64,000 nucleotides of DNA from Halorubrum ruber. GTDB taxonomy: Archaea > Halobacteriota > Halobacteria > Halobacteriales > Haloferacaceae. Below the pieces are notes generated by a model. The model had not been told where the DNA came from and ran no database searches. It was given only the letters and a program-made list of their open reading frames with translations. The stretch's first letter is position 1. Every line of letters begins with the position of its first letter. The position numbers and the translations under genes were made by a program. Below are positions 3,168 through 18,960 of this stretch, piece after piece. The DNA is taken from assembly GCF_018228765.1 (NCBI RefSeq), contig NZ_CP073695.1:1860001-1924000 (forward strand), written 5' to 3'.

Positions 3168-3584
3168 CTACGCCTCACATTCGGCCAGCCACTCGTGGGC
3201 CCAGTCGTCGATCTCCTCGAAGACGGGGGCGAGCGACTCGCCTTTATCAGTTAAACTGTAGTACGTCGCCACCGGCGAGTCCTCCTCCAACCGCCGGTCG
3301 ACGAACCCGGTCTCCTGGAGGTCGTCGAGCACGCGCGAGAGCGTCCTCGCGTTGGCGTCCGTCTCCCGCTTCAGTTCGTTGAACCGCGCCTCGCCGTTCA
3401 ACAGCTCGTGGAGGACGACGAGCCGCCACTGCGATCCGATCTGCTCGATGGAGTCGATGACGGGGCAGGGGGTCTCGGGCGTCGTCGCCTCTGCCGCGGC
3501 GTCAGCGCCCGAATCAGCCGTCGCGTCAGCGCCCGAATCCGCCGTCTCCGCCGACTCTGCCGCCGAAAGGTCCTGTGATGACAT
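3168..3584 (-). CDS. HxlR/DUF24-family winged-helix regulator, YodB/CatR-like
   Basis: A 138-residue DNA-binding regulator. Residues 1-38 are a disordered Ala/Asp/Ser tail with a repeated ADSGAD motif. The winged helix follows (CPVIDSIEQIGSQWRLVVLHEL, then FNELKRETDANARTLSRVLDDL and a wing YYSLTDKG). Cys40 lies directly before the first helix, the position of the redox- and quinone-sensing cysteine of Bacillus YodB/CatR, and a second cysteine (Cys136) lies near the C-terminus. It is divergent from a DoxX gene and close to a VOC dioxygenase gene, the same partners that YodB/CatR control. Family assignment is secure; the sensing role is inference. Confidence 0.88.
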   Translation of the reverse strand: MSSQDLSAAESAETADSGADATADSGADAAAEATTPETPCPVIDSIEQIGSQWRLVVLHELLNGEARFNELKRETDANARTLSRVLDDLQETGFVDRRLEEDSPVATYYSLTDKGESLAPVFEEIDDWAHEWLAECEA

Positions 3585-3616
3585 CGGTGTTACCTACTAA
3601 CCGTATTGTCCGGGAA

Positions 3617-3652
3617 GCGATAAATAGGTTACGTCCGTATAGCAGGTTACAC
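3617..3652 (+). promoter_or_regulatory. DoxX promoter with direct repeats, candidate HxlR operator
   Basis: A TATA-like GATAAATAGG sits about 30 bases before the DoxX ATG. The heptamer AGGTTAC occurs at 3626-3632 and again at 3644-3650, on the same side of the helix (18-base spacing), covering the TATA region and the likely transcription start. It is a plausible repressor site for the divergent HxlR protein. Confidence 0.45.
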
Positions 3653-3653
3653 G

Positions 3654-4103
3654 ATGTTAGCTGAACTCGCGACGTTACCGCTCCAGTTCGACACCCCCCT
3701 CGCGGGCGAACTCTTCCTGCTCGGCCGGATCCTGTTCGGCGCGACGCTCGCGTTCATGGGGCTCAACCACTTCATGGACCTCGAGACGATGGCCGGCTAC
3801 GCCGAGTTCAAGGGTCTCCCGGCGCCGCAGTTCTCGGTGATCGCCTCCGGCGCCGTCCTCGTCCTCGGCGGCCTCGGCGTCGCCGCGGGCGCGTTCCCCG
3901 TCCTCTCCGCCGGCGCGCTCGCCTTCTTCCTCCTCGCCTCCGCCGTGACGATGCACGACTTCTGGTCGATGGACGACCCCGAGGAGAAGCAGAACGAGAT
4001 GACGAGCTTCCTGAAGAACGTCTACGGTGCCGGCGCCGCGCTGGCGTTCCTCGCCGTCGGCGGCAGCGCGTGGCCGTACGCGGTCGGCCTTGGCCTGTTC
4101 TGA
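3654..4103 (+). CDS. DoxX-family membrane protein
   Basis: A 149-residue integral membrane protein of the DoxX/SURF4 superfamily with four predicted hydrophobic segments (roughly residues 18-38, 58-80, 83-103, 122-146). The segment FMGLNHFMDLETMAGYAEFKG is typical of the family, and PEEKQNEMTSFLKNVYGAGAAL is the usual DoxX C-terminal half. In Bacillus, CatD and MhqP of this family work beside thiol-dependent dioxygenases in quinone resistance. Here it has the same neighbours: an HxlR regulator upstream and a VOC dioxygenase 120 bases downstream. Confidence 0.88.
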   Translation: MLAELATLPLQFDTPLAGELFLLGRILFGATLAFMGLNHFMDLETMAGYAEFKGLPAPQFSVIASGAVLVLGGLGVAAGAFPVLSAGALAFFLLASAVTMHDFWSMDDPEEKQNEMTSFLKNVYGAGAALAFLAVGGSAWPYAVGLGLF

Positions 4104-4223: not shown

Positions 4224-4706
4224 ATGACCGACGCGCCGCCGACGACCGGGCTCCACCACGTCACGAACATCTGTACCGACATCGAGGAGACCACCGCGTT
4301 CTACGAGGACATCCTCGGCTGGCACACGGTCAAGCGGACCCAGAACTACGACGACCCGGGGACGCCGCACTACTACTTCTCGCCGACGCCCGAAGGGAAG
4401 CCGGGGACCAACGTCACCTACTTCGAGTACCCGGACTCGCAGGGGACGCCCGGCCCGGGCGCGAGCCACCACTTCGCGTTCGGCGTCGAAGACGAGACGA
4501 CCCTGAAGGAGTGGCAGGCGCACCTCGAATCCCACGACGTCGAGGTCTCCGAGGTGAAGGACAGAACCTACTTCAAGAGCATCTACTTCACCGACCCCGA
4601 CGGGCTCGTCTTCGAACTGGCGACGCAGGGGCCGGGCTTCACCCGCGACGAGGACGACCCCGGCAGCGAGGTCATCGACCCGTTCGAGAAAGGTTACGAG
4701 AACTGA
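4224..4706 (+). CDS. VOC-superfamily metalloenzyme, extradiol dioxygenase / glyoxalase type
   Basis: A 160-residue single-module vicinal-oxygen-chelate protein. Candidate metal ligands are His11 or His12 (TGLHHVTN), His82 or His83 (GASHHFAFGV) and Glu131 (GLVFELATQG), the two-His-one-Glu pattern. The order and motifs resemble the half-module of ring-cleaving dioxygenases (CatE/MhqO, LinE/PcpA type). It follows the DoxX gene on the same strand and may be co-transcribed. Glyoxalase or thiol-transferase activity cannot be excluded from sequence. Confidence 0.82.
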   Translation: MTDAPPTTGLHHVTNICTDIEETTAFYEDILGWHTVKRTQNYDDPGTPHYYFSPTPEGKPGTNVTYFEYPDSQGTPGPGASHHFAFGVEDETTLKEWQAHLESHDVEVSEVKDRTYFKSIYFTDPDGLVFELATQGPGFTRDEDDPGSEVIDPFEKGYEN

Positions 4707-13087: not shown

Positions 13088-15022
13088 CTACGACGAGCCC
13101 GCCCCTTCGCCCCGCGCCGCGCTCCCGCCGTGGACCGCGCGCTCGACCGCGGCCGCGAGTTGCTCCCGCGTGCGGTGGCTGACCTCGGCGTCCGTGTCGA
13201 CCTCGATCAGGTGCGACCCCGCCTCCTCGTGGGCCCGAGACACGACGGCGGCGACGTCGTCCGCGACCGCTTGCGCGCGTTCGGCCGGGCTCTCGCCGCG
13301 GTCGGCGAGTGCGTCGGATCGCGCGTCGATCCGCTCGTAGTCGAGGCCGTGAAGCTCCGCGAGCGGCTCGAAGTCGAGCCCGTGTGGCGTTTTGAACGAC
13401 TCGGTGAACGGCGGCTCGAACGACTCGATCGGGAGCTTGTGGAAGATGCCGCCGCCGTCGTTGTTGACCGCGACGACCGTGACGTCGACGTCGCAGCGGT
13501 CGACCGCGAGCAGCCCGTTCGAGTCGTGGTACAGGGCGATGTCGCCGACGACGAGCGTGAGGTCGTCGGTCGTCCCGCTGCCCGCCCCGAGCGCGCTGGA
13601 GACGATGCCGTCGATCCCGGAGACGCCGCGGTTACCGAGCGCGGTGATGTTCGCGGTCGTGGACCCGACGAACCGGTCGAGGTCGCGGACGGGCATCGAG
13701 TTGGAGACGAACAGCGTCGCCGGGTCGGGGAGCGCGTCCGCGACCGCGCGGAGCGCGTCGCCCTCGTGGAAACCGGAGCGGAGCGAGTCCGACTCGCCGG
13801 CAGCGACCGCCTCGTCCAGCTCCTCCGCCTCGCGGCCGTGAACCGCCTCGGCGACGCGGTCCGCCTCCTCCCACTGTGAGCGCCAGTCCGGATCGCCGCT
13901 CCCGCCCCCGACGAGCCGAGAGAGACGAGCGCAGAGCCGGCTCGGCTCGGCGACGACGAGGTCGGTCGCGGCGAACTCGGCCTCGCGCCAGCGCCCGGCG
14001 GGGTCGACCTGGTACTGGTCGGCGCCGGTCCCGGCGAGGTACTTGCGGAGGCGCTTCGAGGTGGGCGAGGCGCCCAGCCGGAGGACGAGGTCCGGGTCGG
14101 CCCACTCGCGCGCCGCCTCCGCCGCGTCGGCGTCCCCGTCCTCACCGTCCGCGAGGTCGGCCGAGAGGTACGCGTCGTAGTTCCCGATAACGGGCGCGAC
14201 GCGGGTGTGCCCGCCGTACCGGAGCCCGGAGAGCGGGTCGGCCAGCACCGGGAACCCGGTCGCGTGCGCGAGCGCCGTAACCGACTCGGGGTCGATGCCC
14301 GGCGGGTCGGCCGGGCCGGCGACGATCAGCCCGCGGTCCGCGTCGCCCAGCTCGGTCGCGAGCGCGCGCAGCTCCTCGTCGCCCGGCTCGGGGGCGCCGG
14401 CCGTCACGTCGACGTACGGGCCGTCGCGGCCACGCTCTGCCGCCTCGGGGAGGTCGTCCGGCACGTCGCCCGGGACCGGCGTCGGCTCCAGCGGCTTTTT
14501 AAATGGGACGTTGAGGTGGACCGGCCCCTGATCGGCGCCCTCGGCGGTCGCAACGGCGCGGGCGACGGTGGTGCGAAGCGAGCGGAGCGCCCGGTCGTTC
14601 GCGGCCGGCTCCGGGAGGTCCTTATAAAAGCGCACGGCGTCGCCGTACAGCTTCTCTTGGTCCGCGGTCTGGTTCGCGCCGGAGTCACGGAGTTCGGGCG
14701 GCCGGTCGGCCGTGAGCGCGAGCAGCGGGACGCGGGCCTCGCTCGCCTCCATCACGGCGGGGTGGTAGTTGGCGGCGGCGGTGCCCGAGGTGCAGATCAG
14801 CGGCGTCACGCGGCCGGTCCTGCGGGCCCGGCCAAGCGCGAAGTACGCGGCGGAGCGCTCGTCCAACTGGGAGAACACGGTGAGCTCCTCGTGGCCCGCG
14901 GCGGCGACAGTCAGCGGCGTCGAGCGGCTGCCCGGCGAGGCGACGACGGCGTCGACGCCCGCGGCGACGAGCTCGTCGACGAGCGCGTTCGCCCACAGGA
15001 CGTTCCGGTTCGGCGCGGTCAT
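13088..15022 (-). CDS. menD: MenD, SEPHCHC synthase of menaquinone biosynthesis
   Basis: Thiamine-diphosphate enzyme joining isochorismate and 2-oxoglutarate to make 2-succinyl-5-enolpyruvyl-6-hydroxy-3-cyclohexene-1-carboxylate. Recognised by VLWANALVDELVAAGVD, VVASPGSRSTPL, FSQLDERSAAYFALG, ICTSGTAAANYHPAVMEA and the C-terminal ThDP region (NRGVSGIDGIVSSALGAG, then VVAVNNDGGGIFHKLP). At 644 residues it is longer than the E. coli enzyme (556), partly from Asp/Glu/Ala insertions. Menaquinone is the main haloarchaeal respiratory quinone. No other men gene is in the window. Confidence 0.95.
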   Translation of the reverse strand: MTAPNRNVLWANALVDELVAAGVDAVVASPGSRSTPLTVAAAGHEELTVFSQLDERSAAYFALGRARRTGRVTPLICTSGTAAANYHPAVMEASEARVPLLALTADRPPELRDSGANQTADQEKLYGDAVRFYKDLPEPAANDRALRSLRTTVARAVATAEGADQGPVHLNVPFKKPLEPTPVPGDVPDDLPEAAERGRDGPYVDVTAGAPEPGDEELRALATELGDADRGLIVAGPADPPGIDPESVTALAHATGFPVLADPLSGLRYGGHTRVAPVIGNYDAYLSADLADGEDGDADAAEAAREWADPDLVLRLGASPTSKRLRKYLAGTGADQYQVDPAGRWREAEFAATDLVVAEPSRLCARLSRLVGGGSGDPDWRSQWEEADRVAEAVHGREAEELDEAVAAGESDSLRSGFHEGDALRAVADALPDPATLFVSNSMPVRDLDRFVGSTTANITALGNRGVSGIDGIVSSALGAGSGTTDDLTLVVGDIALYHDSNGLLAVDRCDVDVTVVAVNNDGGGIFHKLPIESFEPPFTESFKTPHGLDFEPLAELHGLDYERIDARSDALADRGESPAERAQAVADDVAAVVSRAHEEAGSHLIEVDTDAEVSHRTREQLAAAVERAVHGGSAARGEGAGSS

Positions 15023-15494: not shown

Positions 15495-15618
15495 GCCCGG
15501 CGAGACGGTGCGATCCCTCTTAAGTCGGCTGGAAGGCGGCGGGGCCTCCAGAAGCGATACGGGTTTCGGCGGCTCCGCGGACCGGCAGATTCACGTCGGC
15601 CGGCCGACACCCCGGACC

Positions 15619-15984
15619 GTGGTCAGATCCCGCGACCGGTCCCGTCGACGCCCCGCCTACCGCCGCCGCCCCAACGAGTTCTACTGGCTGTGGATCGCGG
15701 CGACCGCGACGTACGGCGTCGGCGACGTCGTCTCCACGGTCGCCTTCCTCCGGTACGTCCCGACGATCGAGGAAGCGAACCCGGTCGTGCGGTTCGCGCT
15801 GGAGTCGTTCGGGCTCTCCGGGCTCGTCGCCCTGAAGATCGCCGTCTACCTCGTCATGCTCTGGATCAGCGTCGAGGGCGCGCGCGAGGGCGACGGCCTG
15901 CTGTACTACTTCCCGCCGGTGTTGCTCACGGCGACCGGGACGTACCTCACCGCGAGCAACGTGCGGCTGCTGTGGCTCTCCTGA
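15619..15984 (+). CDS. small membrane protein, DUF5658-like
   Basis: From a GTG at 15619 the protein has 121 residues: a basic N-terminus (MVRSRDRSRRRPAYRRRPNE) then four hydrophobic segments. EEANPVVRFALESFG between helices 1 and 2 is reminiscent of DUF5658 membrane proteins. The start is uncertain because the frame is open well upstream; the basic tail fits an inside-facing N-terminus. Function unknown. Confidence 0.6.
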   Translation: MVRSRDRSRRRPAYRRRPNEFYWLWIAATATYGVGDVVSTVAFLRYVPTIEEANPVVRFALESFGLSGLVALKIAVYLVMLWISVEGAREGDGLLYYFPPVLLTATGTYLTASNVRLLWLS

Positions 15985-16072
15985 GGGCTGGAGCGCGCCG
16001 TCCCGCCGACGCGGGCCGCTGGCGATCGCCCCCACCGACACCGACTTTCCCGCGCGGCACCCACCTCCCCGC

Positions 16073-17053
16073 ATGCTCTCTGACACCCCCGGGCTCCACC
16101 ACGTCACGGGGATCGTCGGCGACGCGGGCGCCCACGCCGACTTCTACGGCGGGGCGCTCGGGCTCCGCCTGCTCCGCCGGACCGTGAACTACGAGGACCG
16201 CCTCCAGTACCACCTCTACTTCGGCGATGCGACCGGCTCGCCGGGGTCGGTGTTCACCGTCTTCCCCGACCCGAACGCCGACCCCGGGCGGACTGGGAAG
16301 CCCGGCTACGAGGCCGTCGCCTTCGCGGTGCCGCCGAACTCGCTCGGCTACTGGCGCGACCGGCTCGCGGACCGGGGCGTCGAGGCGGGGCCGCTCGACC
16401 CGGACGCGCGCTTCGGCGACCGCGGGCTGACGCTCGCGGACCCCTCGGGGACGCGGGTCGAACTGGTCGTGACGGAGACTGCCGATCCGGATCCGTGGAC
16501 GGACGGTCCCGTGCCCGCCGAACGCGCGATCCGCGGGCTCCGCGGCGTGACCGCGCTCCCCGCGGACCCGTACGGGACCGCGAGCATGCTGGAGACGCTC
16601 GGCTTCGAGTACGAGGCCGAGTCGGGCGACCGCGTGCGCTACCGCGCGCCCGGAGACCGCGCGACGGCCGTCGACCTGCTCGACCGCGACGCGGCGTATC
16701 TCCGGGAGGGGCCGGGAACCCTCCACCACGCCGCGGTTCGCGTCGCGGACCGCGAGACGCTCTTGGACTGGCACGCGCTGTTCCGCGAGCGCGGGTACGA
16801 CGTCTCGCGCGTGAAGGACCGGCACTTCTTCCACTCGCTGTACGTCCGCGGCCCCGGCGGGCTCCTCGTCGAACTCGCGACCGAGGCCCCGACTCCCGAC
16901 GGGCCTCTGGGCCCGGGGCTCGCGGACCCCGAGTCGACCGGGCACGCGACGGACCTCTACCTTCCGCCGCGGTTCGAGGCCGATCGCGAGCTGATCGAGT
17001 CGCAGTTGCCCGCGTTCGACGGTCCCGCGTCGGAGCCGGAGTGCCCTCGATGA
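16073..17053 (+). CDS. two-module VOC ring-cleaving dioxygenase (MhqO/MhqE, LinE/PcpA type)
   Basis: A 326-residue protein made of two vicinal-oxygen-chelate modules. Module 1 begins PGLHHVTGIVGDAGAHADFYGGALGLRLLRRTVNYED and ends with GTRVELVVTE. Module 2 has LHHAAVRVAD (about residue 222) and LLVELATEAPT. The pattern of two His and a Glu fits metal-dependent hydroquinone or catechol dioxygenases. The downstream hydrolase overlaps by four bases, giving the MhqE-MhqD arrangement of Bacillus. The role in quinone or thiol-electrophile detoxification is inferred from family and neighbour. Confidence 0.87.
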   Translation: MLSDTPGLHHVTGIVGDAGAHADFYGGALGLRLLRRTVNYEDRLQYHLYFGDATGSPGSVFTVFPDPNADPGRTGKPGYEAVAFAVPPNSLGYWRDRLADRGVEAGPLDPDARFGDRGLTLADPSGTRVELVVTETADPDPWTDGPVPAERAIRGLRGVTALPADPYGTASMLETLGFEYEAESGDRVRYRAPGDRATAVDLLDRDAAYLREGPGTLHHAAVRVADRETLLDWHALFRERGYDVSRVKDRHFFHSLYVRGPGGLLVELATEAPTPDGPLGPGLADPESTGHATDLYLPPRFEADRELIESQLPAFDGPASEPECPR

Positions 17054-17754
17054 GCCGTCGGATATCCGGCGTCTCCGGCCCGCACGCGGAGGCGACGCTC
17101 GTCACCGCAGGCGCCCCGGTCGCGGCCGCCGAGGTCGCGGTCGTGCTGGTCCACGGCCGCGGGGGGACAGCGGAGGGGCTCGTCCGCCTCGCCGACGAGT
17201 TCTACCGGTCGGGCGCGACGCTCCTCGCGCCCGGCGCGGTCCGGTCGACGTGGTTCCCGGCCCCGCACGAGGCGCCGCTGTCGGCGAACGAGCCGGCGCT
17301 GTCCTCCGCCGTGGACTGCGTCGCCAGCGCGGTCGACGTCGCGCGCGACGCCGGGATCCCACCCGGGCGTGTCGTCCTCATCGGGGTCTCGCAGGGCGGC
17401 GCGGTCGTCGCCGAGTTCCTGCGACGCCGACCCGGCCGATTCGGCGGTGCGTTCGTCGTCTCGGCGGCGCTGCCGGGCGAGGACCTCGCGGAAGTTGAGG
17501 TCGAAGCGGTCGAGGGAGTGGAGATTGAGGAGGACGGGCCACTCGCCGGGACGCCGGTTTCGCTCGACAGCAGCGAGGAGGACCTGTACATGCCCCCGGA
17601 GCGCGTCCGGAAGACCGCGCGCGTCTTCGAGCGCGCCGGCGCCGCGGTCGATCTCCGGATCGACCCGGGCGACGGACACGGTCTCTCGGACGCGACGATG
17701 GACCGGATCGGCGAGCGGGTCGACGCGCTGCTCGTCCGTCGCCGTCGGCCCTAA
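17050..17754 (+). CDS. alpha/beta hydrolase, carboxylesterase/phospholipase (MhqD-like) family
   Basis: A 234-residue serine hydrolase. VVLVHGRGG (31-39) forms the oxyanion region, GVSQG (112-116) is the nucleophile elbow with Ser114, an acidic residue is provided around SSEEDLYMP (174-182), and His210 lies in DPGDGHGLS. ATG at 17050 overlaps the dioxygenase stop (ATGA). In Bacillus MhqD is such a hydrolase, expressed with dioxygenase MhqE. Substrate unknown. Confidence 0.87.
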   Translation: MSRRISGVSGPHAEATLVTAGAPVAAAEVAVVLVHGRGGTAEGLVRLADEFYRSGATLLAPGAVRSTWFPAPHEAPLSANEPALSSAVDCVASAVDVARDAGIPPGRVVLIGVSQGGAVVAEFLRRRPGRFGGAFVVSAALPGEDLAEVEVEAVEGVEIEEDGPLAGTPVSLDSSEEDLYMPPERVRKTARVFERAGAAVDLRIDPGDGHGLSDATMDRIGERVDALLVRRRRP

Positions 17755-17807: not shown

Positions 17808-18491
17808 CTACTGGATCCGCTCGATCCCGTCGTCTTCGGGCGATTCGAACTCCACCGGACGGCGCGGGAGGTCGTCGACGAACTCCCGGACGATGGTGCG
17901 CTCGACGCGCTGGAGCACCTCGCTACAGGTCGACTTCGCGATCCCGACGTGCTCGGCCACCTCGGTGAGCGTGGTCTCCCGGGGCACGTCGTAGTAGCCG
18001 CGGTCGACCGCCTCGAAGAGGACCTCGCGCTGGCGCTCGGTGAGCGACCCGCCCGGGTTCACGCGCTGCTGGACGTACTCGACTTCGAACTCCGCGCCCA
18101 CGTCGCGGAGCGCGTCACCGAACTTCGCGACGCGCTCGTGGTCGCCGGTCACGTCGACGCGGGCGACGCCGTCGCGGATCTCGACCGGCATCTCGATGGG
18201 GACGCCCGCCCGGCGGGCGACGGTCTGGAGGAGCGGGACGAGTGCCTCGACCTGAACGGTGACCATTCCGTCGTCCTCGGCCATCACCGACGAGTGGGTG
18301 ATCGTCTCGTGGTCGTCGATCGCGTCGAGGACCGGGTCCGTGTCGTCCGCGGTGACCCGAACCAGCGCGAACCCCGCGCCGTCTTCGGGCGTCGCGGTCA
18401 ACACCTGGAACCGCGCGTCCGGGTGTTCTCGCGAGACGTCGCCGACCCACGGGCCGTCCGGAATCGTCACGCGGAGGCGTGCCTGTGCCAT
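17808..18491 (-). CDS. bacterio-opsin-activator (Bat)-type HTH-10 regulator
   Basis: A 227-residue regulator starting at ATG 18491 (MAQARLRVTIPDGPWVGDVS). The first 150 residues are the Bat-type sensory/association domain. The C-terminus is the HTH_10 domain (LTERQREVLFEAVDRGYYDVPRETTLTEVAEHVGIAKSTCSEVLQRVE). Such regulators are frequent in haloarchaea. It is divergent from a DUF2249 gene with 100 bases between starts, suggesting it controls that gene and possibly itself. Confidence 0.88.
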   Translation of the reverse strand: MAQARLRVTIPDGPWVGDVSREHPDARFQVLTATPEDGAGFALVRVTADDTDPVLDAIDDHETITHSSVMAEDDGMVTVQVEALVPLLQTVARRAGVPIEMPVEIRDGVARVDVTGDHERVAKFGDALRDVGAEFEVEYVQQRVNPGGSLTERQREVLFEAVDRGYYDVPRETTLTEVAEHVGIAKSTCSEVLQRVERTIVREFVDDLPRRPVEFESPEDDGIERIQ

Positions 18492-18591
18492 ACCCGTGAA
18501 TTCGGCGTCACGGTGGAAGTAGCTTCGGCTCCGCGGCCGCCGGAACATGTTCGTCACAAACGACCCGGAGATCGGCTTCGTATCGTCGAAG

Positions 18592-18960
18592 ATGAGCTCC
18601 GAACCCGGCGATCAGGCGGCGGTCGAACGGGCGGTGGCCGAGCGGACGGACGCGCCGACCGACGGGGAGACAGTCTCCCTCGACGTCCGGGCCCTCGGGC
18701 CGCCGAAGCCGCTGCGCGAGACGCTCGAACGCGTCGAGACCCTCGGTGACGGCGACGTCTTGGTCCAGTACAACGACCGGACCCCGAAGTTCCTCTTCCC
18801 GCGCTTAGAGGACCGCGGGTTCGCGTACGCGGCAGTCGAGACCGACGCGACCGACGCGGTCGTCACGGCGATCTGGCCGGCGGACGGCGAAACGGCGAGT
18901 TCGGGCGAGGGGGCCGGCGAGGGTGACCGGGCAAGCGAGGGCGACGCGACCGCGACCTAA
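18592..18960 (+). CDS. DUF2249 (TusA-like fold) protein
   Basis: About 122 residues from ATG 18592 (MSSEPGDQAAVERAV); an upstream ATG at 18547 is possible. The DUF2249 core is SLDVRALGPPKPLRETLERVETLGDGD followed by LVQYNDRTPKFLFPRLEDRGFAYA. DUF2249 proteins are often linked to denitrification, nitric oxide or sulfur-relay loci. Here the only partner is the divergent Bat-type regulator. The C-terminus is Gly/Glu/Ala low complexity. Confidence 0.85.
   Translation: MSSEPGDQAAVERAVAERTDAPTDGETVSLDVRALGPPKPLRETLERVETLGDGDVLVQYNDRTPKFLFPRLEDRGFAYAAVETDATDAVVTAIWPADGETASSGEGAGEGDRASEGDATAT

Follow-up and report, generated by a model that had tools for sequence, protein, structure and literature searches.

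The window analyzed here, a stretch of 64,000 nucleotides from Halorubrum ruber, contains two units separated by about 12 kb: a gene pair of the mhqE-mhqD type, and a cluster in which an HxlR-family regulator is encoded divergently from a DoxX-family protein and a single-module VOC protein (Table 1). The first-pass annotation of this DNA had described the pair as a two-module dioxygenase overlapping a serine hydrolase by four bases. The coordinates are right, and the ATGA is common to both reading frames. It had also remarked that no MarR-type regulator adjoins the pair, and this is correct for the window: next to mhqED it has no MarR-type gene such as that of the repressor in an MhqR regulon, and the nearest regulator is a convergent HTH_10 protein. 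A DUF2249 gene overlaps the gene of this regulator head-to-head (17808-18960). On the other side of the pair, an open reading frame at 15495-15984 gives a sub-threshold match to DUF5658, and menD, a gene of menaquinone synthesis, is found at 13088-15022, about 1 kb upstream of mhqE. A menD gene is near mhqE in 5 of 51 named loci (L034, L036, L037, L038 and L078), several loci ending at contig ends.

Table 1. Genes and sequence elements of the two units and the adjacent regulator; positions are counted from the first base of the window.
Feature	Position	Strand	Remarks
HxlR-family (DUF24) regulator with Cys40	3168..3584	-	Closest solved structure YodB; the regulator compared with mhqED
HxlR-DoxX divergent promoter/operator region	3583..3653		Conserved in 30 loci
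DoxX-family membrane protein, CatD-like in context	3654..4103	+	
Single-module VOC protein	4224..4706	+	
Conserved box GACACCGACTT	16037..16047	+	36 bases upstream of the mhqE ATG
mhqE-like ring-cleaving dioxygenase	16073..17053	+	ATG start, 326 aa, two VOC modules
mhqE/mhqD stop/start overlap ATGA	17050..17053	+	Four bases
mhqD-like alpha/beta hydrolase, phospholipase/carboxylesterase family	17050..17754	+	ATG start, 234 aa
HTH_10 (Bat-type) regulator	17808-18557		Convergent with mhqD; Pfam assignment

A Pfam scan finds two glyoxalase-fold stretches (PF00903) in MhqE, and the solved structures nearest to it by sequence are MhqO of Bacillus subtilis (3oaj, E = 4e-59), followed by 1zsw and by PcpA (4huz). 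The protein aligns with MhqO and PcpA across its whole length as a two-module VOC chain. We built an AlphaFold2 model from 39 haloarchaeal sequences (mean pLDDT 89.8), and its top three folds in the PDB are the same entries, 3oaj, 1zsw and 4huz, with TM-scores of 0.81-0.91; the score falls to 0.6-0.7 for folds of the glyoxalase-I/GLOD4 type and to ~0.3-0.4 for classical extradiol dioxygenases. Identity to the relatives in the fold alignment is 29-37%, with 37% for MhqO and 32% for PcpA.

For the active site of PcpA, we take the iron ligands to be H11, H227 and E276 and the second shell to be H10, T13, H226, R259 and Y266. Alignment to 4huz then predicts H10, H219 and E267 as the iron ligands of MhqE and H9, T12, H218, R250 and Y257 as its second shell, so that all eight positions are present. 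Among the 39 MhqE sequences six of these positions never vary, while T12 is threonine in 35 and serine in 4, and H218 is histidine in 38. The third iron-ligand position holds a glutamate in the MhqE-PcpA alignment, not the aspartate that, with two histidines, makes up the PcpA metal site in a review (PMC3727088). Because sequence and fold both match MhqO, 1zsw and PcpA and then drop sharply, and because the eight positions are fixed or nearly so, MhqE is most likely an extradiol-type dioxygenase with Fe(II), in one lineage with MhqO, PcpA and LinE; by analogy it would open hydroquinones or quinone-thiol adducts. It resembles MhqO and PcpA/LinE (Sphingobium) in whole-length sequence, in fold and in the aligned active-site residues; unlike them it is archaeal and halophilic, and a hydroquinone substrate would be carried over from these relatives.

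The partner protein, MhqD, matches Abhydrolase_2 (Pfam), with 4h0c as the nearest solved relative (E = 7e-27), and has the predicted triad of a serine hydrolase (S114, D178 and H210). Of 112 homologues in the alignment, 110 have the triad letters and two have gaps there. A hydrolase gene lies immediately 3' of mhqE on the same strand in 45 of the 51 named haloarchaeal loci (counted with loci L005-L033 left out; the exceptions are L065, L067, L075, L076, L081 and L082), which is more than chance would give, and the pair is therefore old. As read by eye, at least 33 of these 45 pairs overlap by four bases (NTGA) and another five by a single base; spacings of 16 and 28 bases are found in exceptional loci. 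When the comparison is widened to 113 distinct MhqE rows, 72 have the hydrolase gene immediately 3' of mhqE in the same orientation and five have it upstream only, and the same adjacency is seen again on named haloarchaeal plasmids in the plasmid collection. A paralogue of MhqE is encoded elsewhere in the genome (1268692-1269636), with no such hydrolase beside it.

The proposed equivalence with the Bacillus pair thus holds up: an MhqO-type dioxygenase is followed by a phospholipase/carboxylesterase-family hydrolase with an intact triad, in a conserved order. This is the gene order of B. subtilis mhqED and S. aureus mhqRED, where, according to a published account (PMC6798810), both genes belong to one operon under the MarR-type repressor MhqR, with a 9-9 inverted repeat. 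Unlike the bacterial operons, the window has no MarR-type gene adjoining the pair, and in several relatives the regulator is a divergent HxlR-family protein.

The HxlR gene of the window is the only one in the genome. The region between it and the DoxX gene is strongly conserved, indeed nearly fixed, across 30 loci, almost every one of which has TAGGTT(A/G)C...GTTACAC directly ahead of the start of DoxX, and in 30 of 30 loci the DoxX gene is accompanied by both an HxlR gene and a VOC gene. CatD of B. subtilis is a DoxX-family protein too. The window HxlR is of the DUF24 type and has YodB as its nearest relative in the PDB; CatR and YodB are DUF24-type repressors of catDE, whose two genes include one for a catechol dioxygenase (PMC6212828). 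Unlike catDE, the Halorubrum cluster consists of DoxX and a single-module VOC protein, and the corresponding cluster of Haloferax mediterranei includes MhqED as well. The single-module VOC protein aligns with MhqE in two separate pieces (MhqE residues 4-69 and 212-301), a match also found for other single-module VOC proteins near MhqED, and its residues H11, H12, T14, H82, H83, R114, Y121 and E131 fill all eight active-site positions. Its AlphaFold2 model, built from three sequences only, is too poor to use (mean pLDDT 45), and the two-piece match is one of sequence. These alignments suggest that the protein may be a half-size relative of the MhqE dioxygenase and not a generic glyoxalase.

The annotation had further claimed that the main protein types of the Mhq/Cat electrophile response are gathered in 15 kb. 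This is true of two dioxygenase-type VOC proteins, the hydrolase, DoxX and HxlR, but not of the quinone/azo- and nitroreductase arm: the genome has no match to the nitroreductase family, and a single weak match to Flavodoxin_2 lies ~1.5 Mb away. We compared the occurrence of the two units in 30 congeneric genomes. A close MhqE (E of 1.5e-97 or better) is present in 20 of them, while DoxX is present in 29; ten genomes thus have no close MhqED where all but one keep DoxX, and the two modules are therefore not co-inherited. In the 20 genomes with both, the units are 12-14 kb apart on one contig in nine, 528 kb apart in one and on separate contigs in ten. The nearness of mhqED to DoxX is hence a matter of local synteny in part of the genus, and we rejected it as a sign of a common regulon.

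A tree of the 113 MhqE rows, made by a quick method with SH-aLRT support only, divides them into clade I (65 rows, with that of the window) and clade II (48 rows). Within clade II, a divergent HxlR gene is found within 600 bp of 12 MhqED pairs, two lone MhqE genes and two MhqE-DoxX pairs, and locus L065 has the order HxlR-DoxX-MhqE-MhqD. Within clade I, the order HxlR-VOC-MhqE-MhqD occurs in L069 and L148 and in no others, so that adjacency to HxlR is mainly a feature of clade II. Altogether MhqE is clustered with HxlR in 19 of 113 rows, which is not an unbiased frequency, since the sample was partly hand-chosen: 60 of the regions behind the rows were picked from MhqE places without a named locus, and four of these, G078:C2, G042:C8, G048:C4 and G018:C2, partly for a nearby DoxX. 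For comparison, HxlR-family genes are few, with 1 to 10 in each of the 60 family genomes searched.

The HxlR proteins encoded beside MhqED are closely related to that of the window and have the same cysteine. We aligned the window HxlR-DoxX region with 15 of the 19 HxlR-headed regions and with 10 of 81 mhqE upstreams. For thirteen of these 15 intergenic regions, no more than one in 1000 shuffles scores as well; the alignments of L148 (11/1000 shuffles) and L069 (27/1000) are less clear, and that of H. mediterranei is weak (34/1000). Because these intergenic regions align across DoxX- and MhqED-headed loci, the HxlR-operator module looks homologous whichever of the two it heads. On plasmid pHME505 of H. 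mediterranei, the genes for HxlR, VOC, MhqE, MhqD and DoxX are contiguous (E6P09_RS15545-RS15565; 69, 38, 54, 40 and 56% identical to the window proteins, respectively), forming one cluster where the window has two units. HxlR, DoxX, MhqE and MhqD share one cluster on a plasmid of Haladaptatus halobius, and HxlR, VOC, MhqE and MhqD are together on one of Halobaculum magnesiiphilum. That mhqED complements the DoxX/VOC cluster was a good functional guess, because in relatives MhqED is found side by side with genes for HxlR, DoxX and single-module VOC proteins.

From these data we consider it probable that the pair is a haloarchaeal quinone operon of the mhqED type, with HxlR acting locally over DoxX(-VOC) and mhqED standing on its own promoter in Halorubrum. 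By analogy with MhqED/MhqRED (PMC6798810) and PcpA (PMC3727088), MhqE, with a presumed Fe(II), would open the ring of a hydroquinone or quinone-thiol adduct, and MhqD would most likely hydrolyse an ester or lactone derived from the opened ring. Translation of MhqD is probably coupled to that of MhqE through the ATGA overlap. Together with the DoxX, VOC and HxlR proteins, mhqED would belong to a haloarchaeal equivalent of the Mhq/Cat response of Bacillus to quinones, with parts that form one HxlR-headed cluster in several relatives and would have been split in Halorubrum: HxlR would control DoxX(-VOC) locally, presumably as a repressor and with a presumed inducer, and mhqED would be transcribed without an HxlR operator, from its own promoter.

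It is unlikely, in our estimate, that MhqED instead serves the catabolism of an aromatic growth substrate, or of a chlorinated or alkylated hydroquinone, with MhqD acting after ring opening as the lactone or ester hydrolase and with no role in stress defence. PcpA and the hydroquinone dioxygenases are catabolic enzymes (PMC3727088), the hydrolase is often annotated as dienelactone hydrolase family on plasmids, and a carboxymuconolactone-decarboxylase-family gene (378-920 in L186) adjoins the HxlR-DoxX-MhqE-MhqD cluster of H. halobius; however, a Pfam scan of ten window proteins recognised no further aromatic-degradation gene, and the recurring partners, DoxX and a YodB-like HxlR, are those of the bacterial stress set.

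Quite unlikely is a single regulon spanning the 15 kb, in which the HxlR protein encoded at 3.2-3.6 kb would repress DoxX-VOC and, in trans, mhqED, as the annotation had proposed. Relatives of this HxlR do head MhqED clusters elsewhere, from homologous divergent operators, and all five genes are together in H. mediterranei, but the proximity of the units is confined to nine of 20 genomes and no operator was found ahead of mhqED. The recommended search for AGGTTAC-like sites, carried out on 120 bp upstream of mhqE in each of 42 Halorubrum-clade loci, gave GGTTAC/GTAACC in 0 of 42, compared with 24 of 30 DoxX upstreams, and position-matrix scores at the mhqE upstreams equal those of shuffles. 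In the 3.02-Mb genome there is one operator-like site with up to 3 mismatches, at HxlR-DoxX; a pattern search allowing two mismatches returned 70 matches versus 31 for the reversed control and tells nothing beyond its sole exact match, again at HxlR-DoxX. Of ten mhqE upstreams aligned locally to the HxlR-DoxX region, eight are no better than shuffles, and L041 (30/1000 shuffles) and L049 (68/1000) align weakly. Thus neither motif counts, position matrix, local alignment nor the genome-wide pattern search gave a site for HxlR at mhqED, and control in trans finds no support in this genus; the pair does not have the operator that would place it in a CatR/YodB-like regulon. What survives of the earlier interpretation is the functional kinship with the HxlR/DoxX/VOC cluster. 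As judged from the upstream sequences, mhqED has most likely been uncoupled from the HxlR operator in the Halorubrum lineage.

In place of an operator, mhqE has a conserved box of its own. Among the 42 loci of the Halorubrum clade, 39 (or 27 of the 29 different upstream sequences) have the pattern GACAnCGnYTT 35-37 bases ahead of the mhqE start codon. It turns up in 5 of 4200 shuffles, in none of 30 DoxX upstreams and, upstream of mhqE, in none of 28 other named loci. Given its distance from the start codon, the simplest reading is that the box belongs to a core promoter, as its BRE/TATA region, and that the transcript is leaderless. It may be merely core promoter, and binding of a regulator at another place is conceivable.

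VOC proteins often switch chemistry, and the second-best relative, 1zsw, is titled an uncharacterised glyoxalase-family metalloprotein, but with all eight PcpA-aligned positions retained and both PcpA and MhqO among the three nearest folds it is very unlikely that MhqE now has a different VOC chemistry (thiol transfer or a glyoxalase-type reaction), leaving the pairing as an inherited relic.

Going beyond the quinone operon of the window, a wider picture could well hold, and we put it forward tentatively: haloarchaea may have a quinone-electrophile response of their own, in which a YodB/CatR-like HxlR repressor stands over a mobile-looking DoxX/VOC/MhqE/MhqD kit that is complete in H. mediterranei and dismantled in Halorubrum, with mhqED on its own promoter and the single-module VOC protein as a half-size dioxygenase. 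If this is true, much of the bacterial quinone-stress toolkit is present in haloarchaea with the regulator swapped (HxlR for MarR), and the whole kit lies in one cluster of a cultured organism that is open to ordinary gene deletion. The haloarchaeal clusters that pair mhqED with a YodB-like HxlR protein would then offer a natural comparison, one enzyme pair with and without a regulator in front; the mhqED operon of the window itself is an ordinary conserved enzyme pair. In a search that covered mainly open-access full text, we found no paper that links MhqE/MhqD, DoxX or HxlR to archaea, haloarchaea included, in this way.

Several loci of the Natrialbaceae type (L057, L059, L060, L061, L063, L064, L066, L070 and L079) carry, as seen by eye, a stretch resembling CACTTAAC...GTTCGTCAGACG ~70-110 bases upstream of mhqE, which is a putative regulator site.
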